Of a stretch of 64,000 nucleotides of DNA, positions 7,491 to 52,199 are shown in pieces (the first letter of the stretch is position 1; every line of letters starts with the position of its first letter). This stretch comes from Affinundibacterium baiyunense (GTDB lineage Bacteria > Pseudomonadota > Gammaproteobacteria > Burkholderiales > Burkholderiaceae_D), in the NCBI RefSeq assembly GCF_018139645.1, contig NZ_JAGSPM010000006.1, forward strand, positions 1 to 64,000, in the 5' to 3' direction. The notes under the pieces are model-generated. The model had not been told where the DNA came from. It saw only the letters and a list, made by a program, of their open reading frames with translations, and searched no databases. The translations under genes were made by a program, and so were the position numbers.

Positions 7491-7524
7491 CGCATTTAAC
7501 CTTGATCGTGGGCGTTGATAGACG

Positions 7525-7869
7525 TTAAGAATCGATCGCTAAAGTGAGCAATTCCCGCGTACATAAATACACTTGATCGGCTTCCACTTTGACACTAAAT
7601 TTTTGCGTACAACCTTCGTCAGGTGACACTGCGCAACCAGTTGGTAATTCGATATTCCAGTTGTGCAAAGGGCAGGCGACTTTTTCACCGAAGACGATGC
7701 CTTGCGATAAGGGGCCGCCTTTGTGTGGACACTTATCCAATAATGCGAAGACTTTGTCTTCCTTGTTTCTGAAGACGGCGACATCGGTTTGCGCTTGTCG
7801 TTTGACGATACGCGCACCGAGGACGGGAATGTCGTCTATGTGACAGATGACTTGCCATTCTTTGGACAT
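7525..7869 (-). CDS. nirD: Nitrite reductase (NADH) small subunit
   Basis: A 114-residue Rieske-fold protein, partner of NirB in reducing nitrite to ammonia. Both Rieske ligand pairs are visible: CPHKGG (about residue 47) and CPLHNW (about 66). It could therefore bind a [2Fe-2S] cluster, unlike E. coli NirD, which lacks the ligands. The gene is separated from nirB by 223 bases that hold a REP-pair element, unusual for two subunits of one enzyme. nasA follows after 34 bases. Confidence 0.93.
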   Translation of the reverse strand: MSKEWQVICHIDDIPVLGARIVKRQAQTDVAVFRNKEDKVFALLDKCPHKGGPLSQGIVFGEKVACPLHNWNIELPTGCAVSPDEGCTQKFSVKVEADQVYLCTRELLTLAIDS

Positions 7870-7891
7870 GGGTTTTCCTTTGTTTTAGGTT

Positions 7892-8051
7892 CCCTTCTCC
7901 CACAAGCGGGAGAAGGGCTAGGGATGAGGGCGCTTGGAGTGCTGCAGACAAAATCACAATTCATACAGGCAACTGATGCAAGTGCTTTGAATTAAGTCTT
8001 TGCGTTGTTGAACCGCCCTCACCCCAACCCTCTCCCGCTTGCGGGAGAGGG
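7892..8051 (-). repeat. REP-pair (BIME-like) element, copy 1, between nirB and nirD
   Basis: Two imperfectly matching hairpin units face each other. Unit A (7892-7917) has a CCCTTCTCCC/GGGAGAAGGG stem and a tail GGGATGAGGG. Unit B (8028-8051) has an 11-bp CCCTCTCCCGC/GCGGGAGAGGG stem with a 2-base loop and, in the transcript, a tail TTGGGGTGAGGG. Read on the transcribed (minus) strand, the order is nirB stop, 41 bases, B, spacer of about 80 bases, A, 22 bases, nirD start. Two further copies occur at 39655-39817 and 50709-50873. Confidence 0.9.
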
Positions 8052-8092
8052 TGCTTGTTATCGAAATCGATTCATAAATGGTATTTTGAGAA

Positions 8093-10522
8093 TTACCCTC
8101 CTATTCGCTCAAATTGCCGCGTATCCACTTGCGCCTTCTCCGGTTCATGCCAAGGATCCACTTCACCTTCCAGCGCGAACAGCAAACGTTGATACAGTTC
8201 TTCACGTCGCACAGCATTTTCCAAAACTTGTTGTTTGACGTAGTCAAGACCAACGCGAGCGATGTAGTGCACTGTGCGCTCTAAATACCAACCTTCTTCG
8301 CGATACAGTTGTAAGAACGCGCCGGTATATTCCATGACTTCTTGGTGGGTTTTTAGCTTGACTAAGAATTGCGCGACTTCCGTTTTGATGCCGCCATTCC
8401 CGCCCACATACACTTCCCAACCAGAATCGACGCCAATCACGCCGACGTCTTTGATCCCGGCTTCAGCACAATTACGTGGGCAACCGGATACCGCGAGTTT
8501 GACTTTGTGTGGCGCGTACATGCGTGCTAATTCGCGTTCTAATTGTTGTCCCATCAACGTCGAATTTTGTGTGCCGAAGCGGCACCATTCGCTGCCCACG
8601 CAAGTTTTCACTGTACGCAATCCTTTGGCATAGGCGAGGCCGGATGGCATGCCCAGATCTTGCCAAACGGCGGGTAGATCCTCTTTTTTCACGCCGAGTA
8701 GGTCGATACGTTGACCGCCGGTGACTTTGACGGTCGGAATCTTGAATTTATCGACCACGTCGGCAATTCGGCGTAATTCGGAAGCATTGGTTTCGCCACC
8801 CCACATACGCGGAATGACCGAGTAAGTCCCATCTTTTTGGATATTCGCATGCGAGCGTTCGTTGATGTAACGCGATTGCGGATCATCGATGGCTTCTTTC
8901 GGCCAAGTCGAAATCAGATAGTAATTCAACGCAGGGCGGCAACTCGCGCAACCATTTGGTGTGCGCCATTCCATGAATTGTTGAACCGCTGCCACGGTCA
9001 ATAAATGATTGGCTTTGATTGCTTCACGCACGGCATGATGCGAGTGGTCGGTACATGAGCACATGGCCTTGGCTTTCGGTGTAGCTGAATAATCGCCACC
9101 TGCCGTGAACATAATGATTTGTTCGACCAAGCCTGTGCACGAACCGCACGAGGCAGAGGCTTTAGTGTGTTTGCGTACATCTTCTAAGGTGAATAGGCCT
9201 TTTTCTTTAATCGCTTTGACGATCGTTCCTTTGCACACGCCATTGCAACCGCAGACTTCAGCATTGTCTGGCATGGCGGCTGCTTTAGTGTGACCTTCAT
9301 GGCCGACGTCGCCTGTATTTGATTCGCCGAACATCAGCGAATCACGAATCTCTGCAATGTTTTTACCCTCGCGTAGCAACTTAAAATACCAACTGCCATC
9401 GACCGTATCGCCATACAAGCAGGCGCCTATGAGTTTGTCGTCTTTCAACACAAGTTTTTTGTAGACGCCGCCGATAGGGTCGGACAAGATAATTTCTTCG
9501 GTATCTTTACCACCTGAGAAGTCACCCGCAGAAAATAAGTCGATGCCAGTCACTTTCAGTTTGGTGGACGTCACAGAACCTTGATATCGACCGATGCCGA
9601 AGTTCGCCAAATGATTTGCGCAAACTTTTGCCATCTCGAATAAAGGTGCGACCAAGCCATACACAGTGCCGCGATGATTTACGCATTCACCGACAGCATA
9701 AATGCGCGGGTCGTAAGTTTGCATGGTGTCATTCACGATCAGACCGCGATTGCAATACAGCCCGGCGGATTCAGCTAAGGCAGTGTTGGGGCGTATCCCA
9801 ACTGCCATGATGACGAGTTGTGTAGGAATTTCTAAGCCATCAGAAAAACGGATGGCTTTGACGCGACCGTTTTCATCACCAAGTAGAGCTTCGGTATTTT
9901 TCTCTAATAAGAAATTGAGACCGCGATCTTCTAAGGATTTTTGCAGCATCTTGCCTGCGGTTAGATCGAGCTGCCTATCCATCAGCCATGCGGGCAAATG
10001 CACGACTGATACGTTCATGCCACGCATCTTTAGGCCATTTGCAGCTTCTAGACCGAGCAGCCCGCCACCGATGACAACCGCATGGGTATGCTCGGCCGCT
10101 GCAGCGATCATGGCATTGGTGTCATGGATGTCGCGGTAGGCAATCACGCCTTGTAAATCTTTGCCCGGCACGGGCAACATGAATGGCGTAGAGCCAGTGG
10201 CGATCAGTAATCGATCGTACTCGGTTTCCATACCGTCTTCGGCGATGACCACACGTTTGTAGCGATCAATTTTGACGATTTTTTTGCCTAGATGTAGGGT
10301 GATATTGTTTTCTGCATACCAGTCGACATCATTGAGCATAATGTCTTGAATGGTTTGCTCGCCTGCTAATACGGGCGATAACAAAATGCGATTGTAGTTG
10401 GCGTAAGGTTCCGCGCCAAAGACTGTGATGTCGTACAAATCGGGCGAAATTTTCAGCAATTCTTCCAAGGTGCGTACACCTGCCATTCCATTGCCGACCA
10501 CGACGAGTTTGAGTTTTTTCAT
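8093..10522 (-). CDS. nirB: Nitrite reductase (NADH) large subunit
   Basis: An 809-residue cytoplasmic siroheme enzyme reducing nitrite to ammonia. Order: FAD/NAD(P)H-binding domains (VVVGNGMAGVRTLEEL at the start; NAD motif VVIGGGLLGLEAANGLK near 150), then two BFD-like [2Fe-2S] segments (CGCNGVC...CGSC at about 425-465; CSCTDHSHH...CASC at about 490-530). The sulfite/nitrite reductase half-domain follows, with the siroheme/[4Fe-4S] ligands in TCVGSEWCRFG and SGCPRNCAEAG (about 635-685). It is 39 bases downstream of nrtD and belongs to the nrtA-nasA cluster. Confidence 0.96.
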   Translation of the reverse strand: MKKLKLVVVGNGMAGVRTLEELLKISPDLYDITVFGAEPYANYNRILLSPVLAGEQTIQDIMLNDVDWYAENNITLHLGKKIVKIDRYKRVVIAEDGMETEYDRLLIATGSTPFMLPVPGKDLQGVIAYRDIHDTNAMIAAAAEHTHAVVIGGGLLGLEAANGLKMRGMNVSVVHLPAWLMDRQLDLTAGKMLQKSLEDRGLNFLLEKNTEALLGDENGRVKAIRFSDGLEIPTQLVIMAVGIRPNTALAESAGLYCNRGLIVNDTMQTYDPRIYAVGECVNHRGTVYGLVAPLFEMAKVCANHLANFGIGRYQGSVTSTKLKVTGIDLFSAGDFSGGKDTEEIILSDPIGGVYKKLVLKDDKLIGACLYGDTVDGSWYFKLLREGKNIAEIRDSLMFGESNTGDVGHEGHTKAAAMPDNAEVCGCNGVCKGTIVKAIKEKGLFTLEDVRKHTKASASCGSCTGLVEQIIMFTAGGDYSATPKAKAMCSCTDHSHHAVREAIKANHLLTVAAVQQFMEWRTPNGCASCRPALNYYLISTWPKEAIDDPQSRYINERSHANIQKDGTYSVIPRMWGGETNASELRRIADVVDKFKIPTVKVTGGQRIDLLGVKKEDLPAVWQDLGMPSGLAYAKGLRTVKTCVGSEWCRFGTQNSTLMGQQLERELARMYAPHKVKLAVSGCPRNCAEAGIKDVGVIGVDSGWEVYVGGNGGIKTEVAQFLVKLKTHQEVMEYTGAFLQLYREEGWYLERTVHYIARVGLDYVKQQVLENAVRREELYQRLLFALEGEVDPWHEPEKAQVDTRQFERIGG

Positions 10523-15260: not shown

Positions 15261-15968
15261 ATGGCAAGACTTCCGCGTCTGGTAATTCCACATCAGGCTC
15301 ATCACATTACCCAAGCTGGTATCGATAATAAAATCATTTTTGTCGACACTGCGGATTACCAGGTTTTTTTAGATTGGCTCAAGTCAGGTGCGAAACAATT
15401 CGCGGTACAAGTTCATGCCTACACGATATTGCCGAATCGTTTTCATTTATTGGTGACACCCACGGATGAACTTGGCTTGGGAAAAATGATGCAGTGGTTA
15501 GGAAGATATTACGTGCCTTACTTTAATGCGAAGTATCAGCGTAGTGGTTTGCTGTGGCAGGGTAGATTTAAGGCGACGGTGTTGGAATCAAGCCAATACT
15601 TTTTACCGTGTTGTGTCATGTTGGAAGAGATGGCGGTTCGTCAGCATTTGGTGCAAGAGCCGAGCAGTTATTGGTGGTCGAGTTGCCAGCATCATTTGGG
15701 GATGCGTACCGATCCATTGTTGGCCGATCATGCGATGTATTGGGGCTTGGGGAATACGCCATTTGAACGCGAAGCGGCCTACCGTCAATTGCTTGAGAAC
15801 GGTTTGTCGTCAACACTTTTGCAAGCGATTAATGATGCGACGAATAAAGCATGGGTTCTCGGTTCTGCCAACTTCAAGGCAGAAATGGCGAAACTAACTG
15901 AACGGCGCGTTGAACCGGTATCACGAGGACGGCCTAGAAAGCACGCAGTGATTTCGACATCAAGCTGA
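15261..15968 (+). CDS. Y1/RAYT-family transposase-like protein with lost catalytic residues
   Basis: A 235-residue intact protein of the Transposase_17 / REP-associated tyrosine transposase superfamily. The fold markers are clear: MARLPRLVIPHQAHHITQAG, HAYTILPNRFHLL, YVPYFNAKYQRSGLLWQGRFKA (in pieces) and WWSSCQHH. However, the HUH motif, usually NHVHLL, reads NRFHLL, and the segment usually reading RYIELNPVRAG, with the catalytic Tyr, reads VMLEEMAVRQH, with Met at the Tyr position. Both chemical requirements for DNA nicking are absent although the frame is open. The C-terminus (RRVEPVSRGRPRK) is basic. A domesticated DNA-binding protein is the likeliest reading. Confidence 0.8.
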   Translation: MARLPRLVIPHQAHHITQAGIDNKIIFVDTADYQVFLDWLKSGAKQFAVQVHAYTILPNRFHLLVTPTDELGLGKMMQWLGRYYVPYFNAKYQRSGLLWQGRFKATVLESSQYFLPCCVMLEEMAVRQHLVQEPSSYWWSSCQHHLGMRTDPLLADHAMYWGLGNTPFEREAAYRQLLENGLSSTLLQAINDATNKAWVLGSANFKAEMAKLTERRVEPVSRGRPRKHAVISTSS

Positions 15969-34950: not shown

Positions 34951-37900
34951 ATGCACGCACAAGGTTTATACGATCCAAGTAATGAAAAAGATGCCTGCGG
35001 TGTCGGTTTTGTTGCGCATATCAAGGGCAAGAAGTCGCATGCCATCGTTGAGCAAGGTTTGTTGATTCTGAAAAATTTGGATCACCGTGGCGCGGTCGGT
35101 GCTGATGCCTTGATGGGTGACGGTGCGGGTGTGTTGATTCAGATTCCTGATCAATACTATCGCGAAGAGATGGCGAAGCAGGGTGTGGACTTGCCGCCGC
35201 CAGGTGAGTATGGCGTGGGTATGATTTTCTTGCCGAAGGAACATGCTTCTCGTTTGGCCTGCGAACAAGAAATCGAACGTGCGGTGCGGGCTGAAGGTCA
35301 AGTAGTCTTGGGTTGGCGCGATGTGCCGGTAGATCGCGAGATGCCGATGTCGCCGACTGTGCGTGAAAAAGAGCCAGTGATACGCCAGATCTTTATCGGT
35401 CGCGGCCCAGACATCATGGTGACCGATGCTTTAGAGCGTAAGCTGTACGTGATTCGTAAATCTGCAGTACATGCGATTGAAGCTTTGCACCTCTTGCATG
35501 GTAAAGAATACTTCGTGCCGTCGATGTCGGCACGTACCATCGTCTACAAAGGTTTGCTGTTGGCTGACCAAGTCGGCGTTTACTACAAAGACTTGCAAGA
35601 CGAACGTTGTGTATCAGCATTGGCTTTGGTGCATCAGCGTTTCTCCACCAATACTTTCCCAGAATGGCCATTGGCTCACCCATACCGCATGATTGCGCAC
35701 AACGGCGAGATCAATACGGTGAAAGGTAACTTCAACTGGATGCGTGCACGTGAAGGTGTGATGAAGTCGGCTGTACTCGGTGATGATCTGCAAAAGCTGT
35801 ATCCACTGATTTTTGAAGGCCAATCGGATACCGCAAGTTTCGATAACGCGCTTGAACTCCTGGTGATGGCAGGTTACCCAATCGCCCAAGCGATGATGAT
35901 GATGATTCCTGAGGCTTGGGAAAATCATACGATGATGGACGACAACCGTCGTGCTTTCTACGAATACCATGCAGCGATGATGGAACCATGGGATGGCCCA
36001 GCGGCGATGGCATTTACCGACGGTCGTCAAATCGGTGGTACTTTGGATCGTAATGGTTTGCGTCCAGCGCGTTACATTATTACTGACGATGATTTAGTGG
36101 TGATGGCTTCGGAATCTGGCGTGTTGCCAATTCCAGAAGCACGTATCATCAAAAAATGGCGTCTACAACCAGGCAAGATGTTCTTGATCGATCTCGAAGC
36201 AGGTCGCATCATCGACGATAAAGAAATCAAAGATACCTACGCAAACGCCAAGCCTTACAAGCAATGGATTAATTCAGTGCGTATCAAGCTCAGTTCCTTG
36301 AAAGGCGAGCCAGACAATACGCCAGAAGCCGCGTCGTTATTGGATCGTCAGCAAGCGTTTGGTTACACTCAGGAAGACATTAAATTCTTGATGGAACCAA
36401 TGGCGGTATCGGGTGAAGAGGCGATTGGTTCTATGGGCAATGATGCTTCCTTGGCGGTGATGTCCAACAAGCTCAAACCGCTCTACAACTATTTCAAACA
36501 GTTGTTCGCACAAGTGACGAATCCACCGATCGATCCTATCCGCGAAGCGATGGTGATGTCTTTGGTGTCTTTCATTGGTCCTAAGCCGAATCTGCTCGAC
36601 ACAAATAACATCAATCCACCGATGCGTTTGGAAGTATCACAACCGATCTTGAATTTCGATGACATCGCCAAGCTGCGTAATATCAGCGCGAATACCGGCG
36701 GCAAGTTCAAATCTTATGAACTCGATATTTGCTATCCAGTCGCTTGGGGCAAAGATGGTATCGAAGCACGCTTGGCATCCATCTGTGCAGAAGTGGTCGA
36801 TGCGGTCAAATCTGGTCATAACATCATGATCATCACCGATCGCAAAATGGATGCGAACTTTGTCGCGATTCCAGCTTTGTTGGCGACTTCTACTGTGCAT
36901 CAGCATTTGGTCAGCAAGGGTTTGCGCACTACAACCGGCTTGGTGGTAGAAACAGGTTCTGCACGTGAGACACATCACTTCGCTTTGTTGGCTGGCTATG
37001 GCGCAGAAGCAGTGCATCCGTACTTGGCGATGCAAACGCTAGCAGATATGGCGAACAAGTTGAAAGAGGTAGACGCAGAAAAAGCTATCTACAACTACAC
37101 CAAAGCAGTTGGCAAAGGCTTGCATAAAGTCATGTCGAAAATGGGTATCTCGACTTATATGTCTTATTGCGGCGCGCAGATTTTTGAAGCCGTTGGTTTG
37201 AATAAATCCTTGGTCGATAAATACTTCAAAGGTACGGCATCGAATGTCGAAGGTATTGGTGTATTTGAAGTAGCAGAAGAAGCGCTGCGTTTGCACAAGG
37301 CTGCTTTCGGTAGCGATCCTGTGCTGACCAATGCTTTGGATGCGGGTGGTGAATATGCTTTCCGTATCCGCGGCGAAGATCATATGTGGACGCCAGATTC
37401 GATTGCGAAATTGCAGCATTCCACACGTTCGAATAATTTTAATTCCTACAAAGAATACGCGCAGATCATCAATGATCAATCGAAACGTCATATGACTTTG
37501 CGTGGCTTGTTTGAATTCAAAATTGATCCAAGCAAAGCAATTCCTTTGGATCAAGTCGAGCCAGCTAAAGAAATCGTCAAACGTTTTGCGACGGGCGCGA
37601 TGTCTATGGGGTCTATTAGTACCGAAGCCCATGCGACTTTGGCGGTGGCGATGAATCGTATCGGTGGTAAATCGAATACCGGTGAAGGTGGTGAAGATCC
37701 TGCGCGCTACACACAAGAATTGAAGGGTATTCCGATCAAGCAGGGCGCGAGTTTGGCGTCGGTGATCGGGCGTGATCAAGTCGAGGTGGATATTGATTTG
37801 CAAGAAGGCGATTCCTTACGCTCACGCATCAAACAAGTCGCGTCTGGTCGTTTTGGTGTGACAGCAGAATACTTAAGCTCTGCCGATCAGATTCAGATCA

Positions 37901-39633
37901 AGATGGCACAAGGTGCGAAGCCAGGTGAAGGCGGTCAATTACCAGGTCATAAAGTATCCGAGTACATAGCGAAATTGCGTTTCTCTGTGCCAGGCGTGGG
38001 CTTGATTTCTCCGCCACCGCATCACGATATTTATTCCATCGAAGATTTGGCGCAGTTGATTCATGATTTGAAAAACGTCAATCCACGTGCATCGATTTCA
38101 GTGAAGTTGGTATCCGAAGTTGGCGTTGGTACGATTGCAGCAGGTGTGACCAAAGCAAAGTCAGATCATATCGTGATCGCTGGTCATGACGGTGGTACTG
38201 GTGCATCGCCTTTGTCATCAATTAAACATGCAGGCACGCCATGGGAACTCGGATTGTCTGAAGCGCAGCAAACTTTGGTCTTGAATGGCTTACGCGGTCG
38301 TGTCCGTGTACAAGCAGACGGCCAAATGAAAACCGGTCGTGACGTCGTTATCGCGGCGATGTTGGGCGCAGATGAAATCGGTTTTGCGACAGCACCGTTG
38401 GTGGTAGAAGGTTGCATTATGATGCGCAAGTGCCATTTGAATACTTGCCCAGTCGGTGTCGCAACACAAGACCCAGAGCTGCGTAAGAAATTCTCTGGCA
38501 AGCCAGAATACGTGGTGAACTATTTCTTCTTCGTTGCAGAAGAAGCGCGTCAAATCATGGCGCAGCTTGGTATCCGCACTTACGACGAATTGATCGGCCG
38601 CGTTGATCTCTTAGATAAGTCAAAAGCGATCTCACACTGGAAAGCCAAGGGCTTAGATTTCAGCCGCATTTTCCATCAAGTTGATGCAGGTGATGAGGCT
38701 GCGATTCGTCATGTGGAAGAACAAGACCATGGTTTGGATAAAGCGCTAGACAATAAGTTGATCGCTCAAGCCAAATTGGCCTTGGAAACCGGTGAGAAAG
38801 TTTCTTTCATCCAGCCGATTAAAAACTTGAACCGCACCGTTGGCGCTATGTTGTCGGGTGAAGTGGCGAAGCGTTACGGTCATGCTGGTTTGCCTGACGA
38901 CACTATTCATGTGCAGTTGCAAGGTACAGCGGGCCAATCAGCGGGTGCGTTCCTGGCGCGCGGCGTGACATTGGATTTGGTTGGTGAAGGCAATGACTAT
39001 GTTGGTAAGGGTTTATCTGGTGGCCGCATTATCATCCGTCCAAATACCGAATTCCGTGGTTGGGCAGTCGATAACATCATTTGTGGCAATACAGTGTTGT
39101 ATGGCGCAATTGCCGGGGAGGCTTTTATTAACGGTGTAGCGGGCGAACGTTTTGCGGTACGTAATTCTGGTGCATTAGCGATCATCGAAGGCACGGGAGA
39201 TCATGGTTGTGAATACATGACAGGCGGTACGGTGGTGGTGCTTGGTGCCACAGGTCGTAACTTCGCGGCTGGTATGTCTGGTGGTATCGCGTATGTCTAC
39301 GATCCAGATGGCGAGTTTGCAGCGAAATGCAATATGGCGATGGTCAGTTTGGAATCGGTGTTGGCGGGTGACGAGCAAGAGAAAACCATAGACAAATCTC
39401 TGTGGCACGCGAAAACACGCGGCGGTGAGCGTGAAACGGATGAAGCAATTTTGCGTAGTTCAATTGAGCGTCATTTCAAACATACAGGCAGCACCCGCGC
39501 CCGCAATTTGTTGGACGACTGGGCACGTAGTCGCGCTAAATTTGTGAAGGTGTTCCCGAACGAATACAAGCGCGCTTTGGCTGAGATGTATGTGGCTGAA
39601 CAGGCTGCTTTGAAATTGGAAAAAGCGGCTTAA
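34951..39633 (+). CDS. gltB: Glutamate synthase (NADPH) large subunit
   Basis: A 1560-residue enzyme converting glutamine and 2-oxoglutarate to two glutamates. The N-terminal class-II glutaminase domain has its nucleophile at Cys16 (DACGVGF), meaning a 15-residue propeptide is removed. Central and FMN-binding synthase domains follow, with the [3Fe-4S] ligands in [14 protein letters not shown] plus an earlier Cys (about residues 1150-1170), then the GXGXG beta-helix at the C-terminus ([11 protein letters not shown]). Length is normal for the family. GGGGAA precedes the ATG. Together with nirBD, it completes ammonia assimilation from nitrate. gltD follows after 252 bases holding a REP pair. Confidence 0.97.
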
Positions 39634-39654
39634 GGATCGAGGTTCGATAAAGCC

Positions 39655-39817
39655 CCCTCTCCCGCAGGCGGGAGAGGGTTGGGGTGAGGGGAATTCAGAT
39701 TAGCGAGATGCATGTTGCAAAGTGATTCGTCGGATTTTAAGAACTGACAGTGCAATAAAGTTTTTGCCTTATCGACCGCCCTCATCCCCAACCCTTCTCC
39801 CGCTTGCGGGAGAAGGG
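39655..39817 (+). repeat. REP-pair (BIME-like) element, copy 2, between gltB and gltD
   Basis: Unit B first in the transcript: 11-bp stem CCCTCTCCCGC/GCGGGAGAGGG (39655-39678), tail TTGGGGTGAGGG. After a spacer of about 85 bases, unit A: 12-bp stem CCCTTCTCCCGC/GCGGGAGAAGGG (39792-39817) preceded by CCCTCATCCCCAA. B begins 21 bases after the gltB stop, and A ends 68 bases before gltD. Spacer sequence is unrelated to the other two copies. Confidence 0.9.
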
Positions 39818-39885: not shown

Positions 39886-41349
39886 ATGGGAAAAGTAACC
39901 GGTTTTATGGAATACCAGCGCTTGCAAGAAGCGAGCGAAGCGCCTAAAACACGCCTGAAGCATTACAAAGAATTTTTGATGCACTTGGATGATGGCCAAG
40001 CCAAAATCCAAGCTGCACGTTGTATGGATTGTGGTATTCCGTTTTGCAATAACGGCTGCCCCGTCAATAACATCATTCCCGACTGGAATGATTTAACCTA
40101 CAACGGCAATTACCAGCAGGCTTTGGAGGTGCTGCATTCAACGAATAACTTTCCAGAGTTCACTGGAAGAATTTGCCCAGCACCTTGTGAATCTGCTTGC
40201 ACACTCGGCATCAATGAGCTGCCTGTCGGCATCAAATCGATAGAACATTTCATCATCGACAAGGGTTGGGAAAATGGTTGGGTTACACCACAAATTCCAG
40301 CACAGAAGACGGGGAAGAAAGTGGCGATTGTCGGCTCTGGCCCAGCAGGTCTGGCAGCAGCACAGCAATTGGCGCGTGTTGGGCATGATGTCACTGTGTT
40401 CGAAAAAAATGATCGTGTCGGTGGCTTGCTACGTTACGGCATTCCTGATTTTAAAATGGAAAAATCCCATATCGACCGTCGCGTTGAACAAATGCAAGCA
40501 GAGGGTGTGACCTTCCGCACGGGAGTTTTAGTTGGTAAAGATTTCCCTAGCAATATTACGAACTGGTCAAAAGAGACAGTGTCTCCCGACGAGTTGAAAA
40601 AAGAATTTGATGCCGTGATCGTCGCAGGTGGTGCCGAAGTGCCGCGCGATTTACCTGTGCCTGGTCGTGAGCTCAAAGGTGTGCACTTTGCAATGGAATT
40701 TTTGCCGGTGCAAAATAAGGTGAATGCAGGAGACAAATATAAAGATCAGATCATGGCAAGCGGTAAGCATGTGGTCGTGATCGGTGGTGGCGATACAGGT
40801 TCAGATTGCGTGGGAACATCGAATCGCCATGGCGCAAAATCAGTCGCTCAATTTGAACTGATGCCACAGCCACCAGAGCAGGAGAATAAGCCTTTAGTCT
40901 GGCCTTACTGGCCAACCAAATTACGCACATCCTCTTCGCACGAAGAAGGCTGTGATCGTGATTGGGCAGTCGCTACAAAACGCTTAGAAGGTAAAGGCGG
41001 CAAAGTAGAAAAACTGATCGCTTGCCGCGTTGAATGGAAAGACGGCAAGATGAGTGAAGTGCCTGATTCTGAATTTGAAATGAAGGCTGACTTAGTATTG
41101 TTGGCAATGGGCTTCGTCTCACCAGTTGGTCAAGTTTTAGAAGCCTTCGGTGTCGATAAAGATGCTCGTGGCAACGCACGTGCGACGACGGACGGCGAAG
41201 GTTGCTACAAAACCAATGTGGAGAAAGTCTACGCAGCAGGCGATATGCGTCGTGGGCAATCTTTAGTCGTGTGGGCAATTCGTGAAGGTCGTCAATGCGC
41301 GCGTGAGGTTGATGCGTTCTTGATGGGAGAATCAGTTTTGCCACGATGA
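39886..41349 (+). CDS. gltD: Glutamate synthase (NADPH) small subunit
   Basis: A 487-residue subunit that transfers electrons from NADPH to GltB. N-terminal cysteine motifs for two [4Fe-4S] clusters: [15 protein letters not shown] (about residues 47-61) and CPAPCESAC (about 96-104). FAD motif [17 protein letters not shown] (about 147) and NADPH motif [15 protein letters not shown] (about 300). GAGG lies nine bases before the ATG. It is expected to be co-transcribed with gltB despite the intervening REP pair. A clear terminator follows at 41413. Confidence 0.97.
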
Positions 41350-49255: not shown

Positions 49256-50662
49256 CTAAATATGCAAAGCGTGTCCTAAAGCACGTAATGCAGCTTCTTG
49301 TACTGCTTCGCCCAAGGTGGGATGTGAGTGGATGGTGCCAGCGACATCTTCTAAGGTGGCACCCATTTCTAAGGACAATCCAAAAGCCGCGCTGAGTTCT
49401 GAGACGCCTTTGCCAACCGCTTGCCAACCAAGGATTAAGTGATTGTCTTTGCGAGCGACCACGCGTACGAAACCTTCGCTTGATTCTAAAGTCATGGAGC
49501 GACCATTCGCTGCAAATGGGAACATGGCGCTAATTGCTTCGATGCCAGCTGCTTGTGCTTCTTGCGGTGATTTGCCGACGACGACTAATTCTGGATCAGT
49601 AAAGCATACTGCTGGGATCGAGGCTGGCATGAAGTGACGGCGTTTACCTGCGATTATTTCTGCCACCATTTCGCCTTGTGCCATAGCGCGATGCGCCAAC
49701 ATAGGTTCGCCCGCCACATCGCCAATCGCCCATACATCACGCATAGACGTGCGGCATTGATCGTCGATTTTGATAGCGCGTCCGTTCATGTCTAGCATTA
49801 AGCTTTCCACGCCAAAGCCTTCGGTGCGAGGACGACGTCCAACCGCGACTAAGACTTTATCGCAAGTGAGTTCAGATTCTTCACCTGCCGCGTTTTTGAT
49901 ACGCACGGCGCTATGGTCGGCATTCATCCCTTGTACAGTGCAGCCCAAGTGGACTTCGATTCCCAATTGTTTGAGTGCCGTTTTGACGACCTTGGTAAGC
50001 TCTTCATCGTAGGCAGGCAAGATGCGATCGAGTGACTCCACAACAGCGACTTCTGCGCCGAGCTTGCGATACGCGATGCCGAGTTCGAGACCGATGTAGC
50101 CGCCACCAACGACTACTAGTTTCTTAGGAACTTCAGTTGGGGAGAGGGCTTCGGTCGAGCTGATGACTTTGCCATTGCTGGAACCAAAGGGCATGAAAGG
50201 CAATTCGACCGGTGTGGAGCCCGATGCGATCAGCAAGTGTTGGCAAGTAATGCGCTGAACTTCTTTGCCATCTTGTATGACGGCGACCGTTTTGCCATCA
50301 ATAATTTGCGCCCAGCCTTTAATGACTTGCGCGCCGTTTTTTTTCAGTAAAGCGCCGACCCCGCTGGTTAAGCGTTTGACGATGCCATCTTTCCAGCTAA
50401 CAGTTTGCTCGATGTTGATGCTGGGATCGCTGACTTGGATGCCGATAGATGAACCATGCGCATAATGCTTGGCCTTCTCAAATTCTTCAGCGGCATGGAT
50501 CATGGCTTTGGATGGAATACAGCCGATGTTGAGGCAAGTACCGCCGAGCTGATCGCCTTCGATCAGGATGGTCGGAATTTTAAGCTGTGCAGCGCGAATC
50601 GCTGCGATATAACCGCCGGGGCCACCGCCGATCACGACTAGAGTTGTGGATGTTGTTTGCAT
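49256..50662 (-). CDS. lpdV: Dihydrolipoyl dehydrogenase (E3)
   Basis: A 468-residue flavoprotein that reoxidises dihydrolipoamide with NAD+. FAD motif [18 protein letters not shown]; redox disulfide in [15 protein letters not shown] (about residues 41-55); NAD motif [14 protein letters not shown] (about 180); and the C-terminal active-site [10 protein letters not shown] with His and Glu. It is last in the E1alpha-E1beta-E2-E3 operon, separated from E2 by 217 bases containing a REP pair. Use with the branched-chain complex is inferred from the operon. Confidence 0.95.
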
Positions 50663-50708: not shown

Positions 50709-50873
50709 CCCGTCTCCCGCAGGCGGGAGAAGGGCTAGGGATGAGGGTGCTTGGACGTGCCGTAAACTGCGGAAAAATTTCTGGTAGTGCGACGACGTTT
50801 TTTATTGCCCTAAAGAGCGAAGTACATTTCTGAATCACCCTCACCCTAACCCTCTCCCGCTTGCGGGAGAGGG
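50709..50873 (-). repeat. REP-pair (BIME-like) element, copy 3, between E2 and E3 genes
   Basis: On the transcribed (minus) strand, unit B comes first: 11-bp stem CCCTCTCCCGC/GCGGGAGAGGG (50850-50873) with tail TTAGGGTGAGGG, only six bases after the E2 stop. Unit A (50709-50734) follows after about 90 bases; its stem has one internal mismatch, and it ends 46 bases before the E3 start. Its leader CCAAGCACCCTCATCCCTAG matches copy 1 closely. Confidence 0.9.
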
Positions 50874-50879
50874 AGCTAT

Positions 50880-52199
50880 TTACTCAATAAACAACGTAGC
50901 CGGACACTCCAAATAGCCACGAATCGTCTGAATAAACTGCGCCGCATCCATACCATCAACTACGCGATGATCAAATGACGAGGACAAATTCATCATCTTG
51001 CGCGCCACCACTTGGCCATTGCGTATCATCGGACGTTCCACCATTTTATTGACACCAATGATGGCAACCTCGGGAGAATTGATGACGGGTGTTGATACGA
51101 TGCCGCCCAAAGCACCCAAGCTAGAAATTGTGATCGTCGAGCCAGACAATTCTTCACGCGTCGCTTTGCCAGTACGCGCTGCTTCAGCGAGACGTCCCAT
51201 TTCATTGGCGTTACTCCAGAGGTCACGCGCTTCGGCATGACGTACGACCGGCACCATCAAACCCGCAGGCGTTTGTGCCGCAATGCCTAGATGAACCGCA
51301 GCAAATTGGGTGACGACACCGGCTTCATCATCGTAACGCGCATTAATTTGTGGATAGTCGCGTACTGCTAACACTACTGCACGCATCAGCAGAGGTAGCA
51401 AACTGAGCTTACCGCGTTCTTTGCCCCACTTTTGATTGAGTTGTGTGCGCAAAGCTTCAAGTTCAGTGACGTCAACTTCCTCGACATAAGAGAAATGCGG
51501 AATACGACGTTTAGCGTCTTGCATTTTTTGTGCAATTTTTCGACGTAGACCAATCACTGGAATTGCCGTTTCTTCGTGCAACTCGCGATAAGTGCTACCG
51601 CCCGATCCTGCAGAAACCGGACCACGCGCAAGGTATGCTTCAAGATCTTCATGCGTGATGCGACCTGCGGTTCCTGTGCCCGGCACAAATTGCAACTCAA
51701 TACCTAAATCCCAAGCACGGCGACGCACGGCGGGCGAGGCGATTGGTTTTTCACCATCGGCGCGAGCCGCACCTGGTAAGTTGCTGCTAGATTTGGCTGC
51801 CACTGGCGCTGTGGTTGCTGGTGTTATTGGCGTTGGAGTAGGTGCAACTGGAGCTGGTTTTTCGACTACGGACGGCGCTGCAGTTGCCGCTGCAGGTGCA
51901 GGCGTTGTTGGTGCGGCCGCCACTGGCGTAGCTGCGTTGGCATCCACGTTGCCTGCACCTTCCACTTCAATGCGTATCAACTCAGAGCCTACCGCCATCA
52001 CCTGACCAGCAGCACCACCAAGTGCCAAAACCTTGCCGTGCACAGGGCTAGGAATTTCAATGGTCGCTTTATCGGTCATGACATCCGCCATGACTTGATC
52101 TTCGACGATCATGTCGCCCACTTTGACATTCCACGCAACCAACTCAACTTCTGCAATACCTTCACCGATATCCGGCATTTTAATGACATGAATACCCAT
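50880..52199 (-). CDS. bkdB: Branched-chain 2-oxoacid dehydrogenase E2 (dihydrolipoyl acyltransferase)
   Basis: A 439-residue acyltransferase core. N-terminal lipoyl domain with the modified Lys in VMTDKATIEIPSP (about residue 43); an Ala/Pro/Thr-rich linker (about 90-165); a peripheral subunit-binding domain (IASPAVRRRAWDLGIELQ, about 175-210); and the catalytic domain with SSSFDHRVVDGMD, where His and Asp are catalytic. The ATG at 52199 has GGAGA and lies one base before the E1beta stop; an upstream start at 52274 would overlap E1beta. Confidence 0.95.
   Translation of the reverse strand: MGIHVIKMPDIGEGIAEVELVAWNVKVGDMIVEDQVMADVMTDKATIEIPSPVHGKVLALGGAAGQVMAVGSELIRIEVEGAGNVDANAATPVAAAPTTPAPAAATAAPSVVEKPAPVAPTPTPITPATTAPVAAKSSSNLPGAARADGEKPIASPAVRRRAWDLGIELQFVPGTGTAGRITHEDLEAYLARGPVSAGSGGSTYRELHEETAIPVIGLRRKIAQKMQDAKRRIPHFSYVEEVDVTELEALRTQLNQKWGKERGKLSLLPLLMRAVVLAVRDYPQINARYDDEAGVVTQFAAVHLGIAAQTPAGLMVPVVRHAEARDLWSNANEMGRLAEAARTGKATREELSGSTITISSLGALGGIVSTPVINSPEVAIIGVNKMVERPMIRNGQVVARKMMNLSSSFDHRVVDGMDAAQFIQTIRGYLECPATLFIE

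Follow-up and report, generated by a model that had tools for sequence, protein, structure and literature searches.

Results

Palindrome pairs at operon junctions

The window analysed here, a stretch of 64,000 nucleotides from the genome of Affinundibacterium baiyunense, contains three palindromic elements, each of which lies between two genes for parts of one enzyme. Genes were called with our own script throughout, and neighbours were named from their NCBIfam matches. Copy 1 (7892..8052, minus strand) separates nirB, the nitrite reductase large subunit (8093..10522, minus strand; TIGR02374), from nirD, the small subunit (7525..7869, minus strand; TIGR02378). Copy 2 (39654..39817, plus strand) is found between the genes for the large and small subunits of glutamate synthase, gltB (34951..39633, plus strand; NF008730) and gltD (39886..41349, plus strand; TIGR01317). 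Copy 3 (50709..50874, minus strand) follows the gene for E2, the dihydrolipoyl acyltransferase of a 2-oxoacid dehydrogenase complex (50880..52199, minus strand), and precedes that for E3, dihydrolipoyl dehydrogenase (49256..50662, minus strand; TIGR01350). Note that the NCBIfam matches of E2 are below cut-offs and that its start at 52199 is the script's call, the longest reading frame extending to 52274.

Each copy joins one hairpin of type A to one of type B, and in transcript direction B comes first. In copy 1 the order is B, spacer, A: the B unit (8016..8052, minus strand), a hairpin followed by a purine tail, is a nine-triad intrastrand-triplex motif, and the A unit (7892..7930, plus strand) is a ten-triad motif with its tail pointing inward. 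The corresponding units are at 39654-39690 (B) and 39779-39817 (A) in copy 2 and at 50838-50874 (B) and 50709-50747 (A) in copy 3. A first-pass annotation of this DNA had described both the location between enzyme-part genes and the B-then-A arrangement, and for the window both descriptions are correct.

Twelve copies of the stem motif GGGAGARGG are present in the window, where shuffles predict 0.24. The B hairpin at gltB|gltD folds modestly better than its shuffles (z -1.3), and no Rfam family matched in the one stretch that was scanned, 7500-8200 around copy 1. An intrinsic terminator can be rejected at nirB|nirD, where a scan of the sense (minus) strand found no hairpin with a U-tract behind it; copies 2 and 3 were judged by eye.

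A known kind of element

Judged by their letters, the elements are of a known kind, paired BoxC/PIT/TM intrastrand-triplex motifs. Each hairpin with its tail consists of a pyrimidine block, the purine complement of that block, and a second purine block mirroring the first; a ten-triad A half and a nine-triad B half are then placed in inverted orientation, tails inward, around a spacer of about 85 nt. Among the 58 of 70 paired hairpins that were scored, triads are complete in 25/25 A units (10/10) and in 32/33 B units (9/9), compared to about six triads on average when tails are shuffled. Copies of type B have the stem CCCTCTCCC/GGGAGAGGG followed by TTAGGGTGAGGG or a near variant, in agreement with Table 1 of PMC4666352, and the stem CCCTCTCCC/GGGAGAGGG and the tail GGGTGAGGG are common to our elements and the BoxC/PIT/TM_ECO elements described there.

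The likeness extends further. According to the accessible parts of the same paper, BoxC/PIT elements are always intergenic, as here, where none of the 35 pairs recovered from the genome overlaps a gene called by our script. All five inverted pairs of E. coli join type A with type B, so that the rule "never two of the same kind", put forward in the first-pass annotation, had already been reported for elements of this kind. Their loci are said to be more rearranged than controls, with pairs losing parts yet still able to form a stem-loop. There are differences too: the two types found here are unlike in stem length (10 versus 9 triads); copies hug upstream stop codons and show a polarity bias in this genome, whereas PMC4666352 reports no strand or operon bias; and the swap for other palindrome families at orthologous junctions, described below, does not appear in the accessible text of that paper. 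BoxC/PIT elements have been known since the 1990s and, as far as this source goes, their function is not established, no promoter, terminator or operon effect having been found (PMC4666352). As purine-motif triplexes cannot form in RNA (PMC4666352), a triplex could act only at the level of DNA, and there it may be the cause of the locus instability that the paper reports.

Genome-wide census

Searching the 4.27-Mb genome with the pattern GGGAGARGGN{4,9}TGAGGG, i.e. hairpin plus tail, returned 77 sites; the reversed control returned 0. In 38 regions (37 fetched plus the window) we recognized 84 hairpins, forming 35 inward pairs and leaving 14 unpaired. The pairs divide into 28 of family I, the type seen in the window, and seven of family II, a variant with terminal repeats; because regions were picked by the exact seed pattern, degenerate copies elsewhere are missed in these counts. 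Family II (L050, L056, L058, L062, L066, L072, L073) has homologous spacers and TIR-like outer ends, with a pair of family-I type inside. Exact hairpin sites are unevenly spread, the 748-kb contig C26 having one and the 276-kb contig C87 ten. Across genomes, the paired unit is present in 11 of 60 (its own included), all of the same genus, and a scan of named genomes (32 stretches) places it mostly in other Undibacterium genomes and a few other metagenome bins.

The census bears on two further statements of the earlier annotation. By the stem rule, 33 of the 35 pairs are A/B and two (L046, L064) are B/B, each of the latter with one half that carries a longer GGGG tail, so that the exclusion of like pairs is not confirmed as a strict rule. 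The statement that spacers are unrelated largely holds for the interior, with three short matches among 28 spacers, and fails at the ends, which share a TTCAG...CTGAA extension. As parsed, family-I spacers measure 67-97 nt in 27 of 28 copies, with lengths and column scores being approximate because the left tail is untrimmed in 7 of 28 rows. The sole long-spacer pair (155 nt; L048:3818-4048) holds a GGGTCGCACCCGCCC-like palindrome in its spacer and looks like another nested insertion.

Placement and polarity

Neighbours are co-directional at 25 of the 28 family-I copies, convergent at two and divergent at one. Co-directional junctions are common in the surroundings of the elements (101 of 142 gaps of at least 60 nt), so the excess is modest: p = 0.036 relative to junction counts, and p = 0.003 relative to intergenic bases. 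Copies lie a median 16 nt from the upstream stop versus 68 nt to the next start (Wilcoxon p = 0.0016), and the upstream gap is the smaller one in 19 of the 25 co-directional copies.

Being located between subunits of one enzyme is mainly a feature of this window. What the first-pass annotation saw as exclusive placement is true of its three copies, but only 5 of the 25 co-directional family-I copies in the genome conform: nirB|nirD, gltB|gltD, E2|E3, gcvH|gcvP and cysW|cysA (six if narH|narJ is counted). Other family-I junctions include dnaA|dnaN, dnaN|gyrB, uvrA|pth, leuS|lptE, dut|asnS, bioF|bioD and pheA|tyrA. The gene after cysW (L070:4083-4505) was called at 140 aa; its match to CysA covers the first third of that protein, which could reflect a frameshift or an error in the draft.

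Much the same applies to polarity. In this genome B precedes A in 20 of 25 co-directional family-I copies (binomial p = 0.004), with the two B/B pairs assigned from their tails (one counted among the 20, one among the five), and in 22 of 30 when family II is included. In this genome, copies are thus neither mostly at convergent gene ends nor randomly oriented. In other genomes, where only exact B..A copies were considered, 42 copies comprise 18 in B>A order, 12 in A>B order, four at convergent and one at a divergent junction, and seven without an assigned class. Among these, 16 junctions are non-orthologous to those of the window's genome, and they split into 7 B>A and 9 A>B; pooled with our genome the ratio is 27 versus 14 (p = 0.06). 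The order noted as invariable in the window is therefore best seen as a local bias, and a universal B>A polarity can be rejected.

Other repeat families at the same junctions

We traced the 25 co-directional family-I junctions into U. macrobrachii (G002), U. fentianense (G061), U. amnicola, U. seohonense and U. flavidum (G024). Both neighbours were recovered at 117 of 125 sought junctions, the remaining eight being dropped for want of a hit or of a downstream gene, and family I is kept in 68. Of the 49 junctions that lack it, 42 carry another palindromic repeat family. These replacement families, defined by our own fuzzy motifs, are III (TCCCCTTCAAGGGGA stems), IV (CGTCATTCCCGC...), V (CGCAGAGGC...), VI, VII (GTAGGGCGGGTG...), VIII and IX.

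To gauge how common such repeats are, we followed 24 control junctions into U. macrobrachii and U. flavidum. The 24 are a random sample of the 52 eligible ones near elements, taken after four with a family-I-like hairpin had been excluded; 4 of 48 control junctions were dropped. In these two species, any family is present at 21 of 23 family-I-lacking targets versus 19 of 44 controls (p = 1.6e-4), and families III/IV at 17 of 48 targets versus 2 of 44 controls (p = 2.3e-4); rows are not independent, and none of the p values given here is corrected for several tests or shared ancestry. Family IX was defined once target junctions with no known family had been inspected, a choice biased towards the targets; when it is left out, 30 of 49 junctions count as replaced and the comparison becomes 15 of 23 versus 16 of 44 (p = 0.04). 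Family III alone is found at 6 of 24 targets versus 1 of 23 controls in U. macrobrachii (p = 0.10) and at 7 of 24 versus 1 of 21 in U. flavidum (p = 0.05). Taking U. flavidum by itself and counting any family other than I, targets (14/24) and controls (11/21) do not differ. Sharing of junctions between families thus exceeds that of controls, subject to the choice of family IX and to this single-genome result.

The gltB|gltD junction illustrates the pattern. GltD proteins of these relatives are 96-100% identical to that of the window, and the junction is occupied by family I in the window's genome and U. seohonense, by III with V in U. macrobrachii and U. flavidum, by IV with V in U. fentianense and by III with VI in U. 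amnicola. At E2|E3 in U. macrobrachii and the relative G031, no remnant of an older element was visible by eye. Family IX (around CGCAATATCGACATATTGC) is seen in several relatives at ahcY|117aa, gcvH|gcvP, gdh|SBP and ACAD|fadB, where the window's genome has family I.

Starting from family III gives a complementary view. In U. macrobrachii, the 67 occurrences among the matches listed were grouped by reading into about 23 sites, with 15 pairs, six of which are at junctions that hold family I in the window's genome. At 15 further family-III loci the window's genome holds family II at four (L302, L304, L305, L306), other families at three, family III itself at two (one of them a possibly paralogous match), no listed family at four and no assignable junction at two; families I, III, IV and V were sought for this assignment, and by eye two of the four loci with no listed family hold VII and IX. 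For family III, which is seen in U. macrobrachii, U. flavidum and G031, the typed consensus strings of the two half types each satisfy 8/8 triads of an intrastrand triplex, so that two triplex-pair families seem to coexist in the genus.

Since related species frequently carry different hairpin elements at one and the same place, it may be the location or the shape of the hairpin, more than its sequence, that counts. In the open-access literature, mostly at the level of titles and abstracts, we found no report of palindromic families replacing each other at orthologous operon junctions; work on "switching" of intergenic regions exists, as its titles indicate.

How occupants change

Several loci record how one occupant gives way to another. 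In the window's genome, family II sits inside family-III hairpins at L302, L305 and L306, one of them with a 9-bp duplication, and at L304 one half of a III hairpin is recognisable beside family II, making a fourth nesting probable. At uvrA|pth of U. flavidum (L255), a unit with family-II-like terminal repeats and a family-III pair inside interrupts a family-I hairpin in its loop and is accompanied by an 8-bp duplication. Two families have thus each served as target. TIR-like ends are found in family II and in this uvrA|pth unit, with target duplications clear only in L066/L302 and L255; the same check for terminal repeats and target duplication found no clean empty site for family I.

Pairs can also shrink. 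At atoB|SDR of U. fentianense a single hairpin remains, with the left arm of B and the right arm of A, the same kind of shrinkage as reported for E. coli pairs in the accessible text of PMC4666352. Finally, at gltB|gltD and pheA|tyrA the same type of occupant is shared across, and not within, closest relatives, from which we infer that whole junctions have probably been exchanged between species.

Stem-loops at junctions without repeats

Our survey of gltB|gltD yielded 30 loci out of 41 matches in 40 genomes: eight long junctions with listed families, two short ones (L144, L156) with family V, and 20 without any listed family (L135-L143, L145-L155). In the 60 nt after gltB, these 20 have a mean folding z of -2.64, with 16 below -2, versus a mean of -1.01 and 7 of 37 below -2 at background co-directional junctions of 16 such genomes (p = 1e-4). 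Convergent gene ends (n = 23) have a similar mean, -2.62. By eye the private gltB stem-loops fall into roughly nine sequence groups. Two-sided compensatory changes are seen at 4 of 12 pairs within one group of five species and at 1 of 12 within a second group; L154 folds worse than its shuffles. By eye, no T-run was seen directly after the stems in the sequences of the family-less loci that were read. Titles and abstract starts in the open-access literature yielded nothing on gltB/gltD intercistronic stem-loops.

E2|E3 counts against any universal requirement for a hairpin. In six distant members of the genus its gap is 15-20 nt, too short to fit a stem-loop, which shows that this junction can do without one. 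Further short gaps are found at bioF|bioD in U. fentianense (10 nt) and at kamE|kal in U. flavidum (33 nt). Taken together, the stop-proximal position of the elements and the private stem-loops at gltB|gltD lend indirect support to hairpins that may act on the mRNA at the junction.

Discussion

Several scenarios might account for palindrome pairs behind stop codons. The first-pass annotation envisaged a dedicated, polar element that sets the ratio between subunits of one enzyme, a model to which the three window copies and the 20 of 25 co-directional copies in B>A order conform. With only five of these 25 between subunits, a dedicated element for enzyme subunits can be rejected; polarity is 7 versus 9 at non-orthologous junctions elsewhere, and relatives use other families at the same junctions, leaving the model as a whole very improbable. 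Nor do we give much credence to the elements being REPINs mobilised by one of the four RAYT-like genes in the genome, though we would place this somewhat ahead of a subunit device. An inverted doublet around a poorly conserved spacer, as in our 35 inward pairs, does resemble the REPIN/REP doublets described in the available text of PMC3116915, and four PF01797 matches are above cut-off, one of them the RAYT-like gene at 15261-15968 (plus strand) of the window. Yet the elements differ from those REPINs in having ends of two kinds, in lacking the GTAG/CGTC tag and in having no RAYT gene beside the copies examined. Of 56 family-I hairpins, one has the tag or its complement close to the foot of its stem. 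No family-I hairpin occurs within 1.5 kb of any of the four genes (3.3-kb loci); in the DNA read, the nearest is 6-7 kb off for three genes, with none in the 8 kb covered around the fourth. The only NCBIfam hit of the window gene (NF047646) is below cut-off, at 39.5 of 80 bits. Mobilisation by RAYT is weakened by the missing tag and by these distances. By their first letters and by eye, families IV (CGTCATTCC...), VII and VIII (GTAGGG...) are alike to the GTAG-/CGTC-tagged REPs in the accessible parts of PMC3733652, from which family I differs by the rarity of the tag and family III, by eye, in having neither tag.

A more serious contender holds that the palindromes are neutral parasites with hot spots: gaps close to stop codons tolerate insertion, later elements prefer existing palindromes and hence pile up at the same junctions, and a benefit of the hairpin is not needed. 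This is a real possibility, to which we would nonetheless give somewhat less than an even chance. Nesting of family II in family-III hairpins and of a TIR unit in a family-I hairpin fits it well, since insertion into existing hairpins would by itself lead families to share sites, whether or not the host benefits. Control junctions carry repeats too (19/44), six distant species have a short, plain E2|E3 gap, and regulatory effects of PIT/BoxC are absent from the published work as far as it is accessible (PMC4666352). What counts against the neutral scenario are the partly covarying stem-loops of their own that species lacking these repeats have at gltB|gltD, and some replacements that leave no remnant of the older element by eye, for example at E2|E3 in U. 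macrobrachii and G031.

We therefore lean, at slightly better than even chance, towards junctions as reusable slots for mobile palindromes, which would probably act as non-terminating stem-loops in the mRNA. The element is a mobile-type palindrome pair, in most cases placed right after the stop codon of a gene with a co-directional neighbour. Over species time its place would be taken by other palindromic families, through nested insertion into hairpin loops, through collapse of a pair into one hairpin and, probably, through whole junctions being exchanged between species. Once transcribed, an occupant would fold into stem-loops that lack a following U-tract on the sense strand (as scanned at nirB|nirD); rather than ending transcription, they would most likely protect the upstream message at its 3' end once it has been cleaved. 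The sequences show what the element is, where it lies, that families share junctions and that elements are nested; exchange between species and the effect on RNA are inferred.

REP sequences of malEF protect the upstream message. By analogy, stem-loops of the kind described here may protect the upstream message of their operons. Differentially decaying operons of E. coli likewise have a stem-loop that protects the upstream message, according to the accessible parts of PMC5927463; the structures in that study were mapped by RNA data and are generally inside coding regions, whereas ours are known from sequence and lie between genes. A bolder version of the slot reading, which we regard as rather unlikely, would have a set of operon junctions needing an intercistronic stem-loop whose sequence is irrelevant, a need met privately or by a recruited mobile palindrome. 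Up to eight distinguishable repeat families would then interchange at orthologous junctions, and selfish palindromes would owe their persistence to occupying functional RNA slots and displacing one another there.

That BoxC/PIT loci are unusually rearranged might be explained quite concretely if each site were a slot whose occupants change. Sister species in which one gene pair is separated by different hairpin families provide natural replacements with which to test whether operon palindromes affect mRNA.
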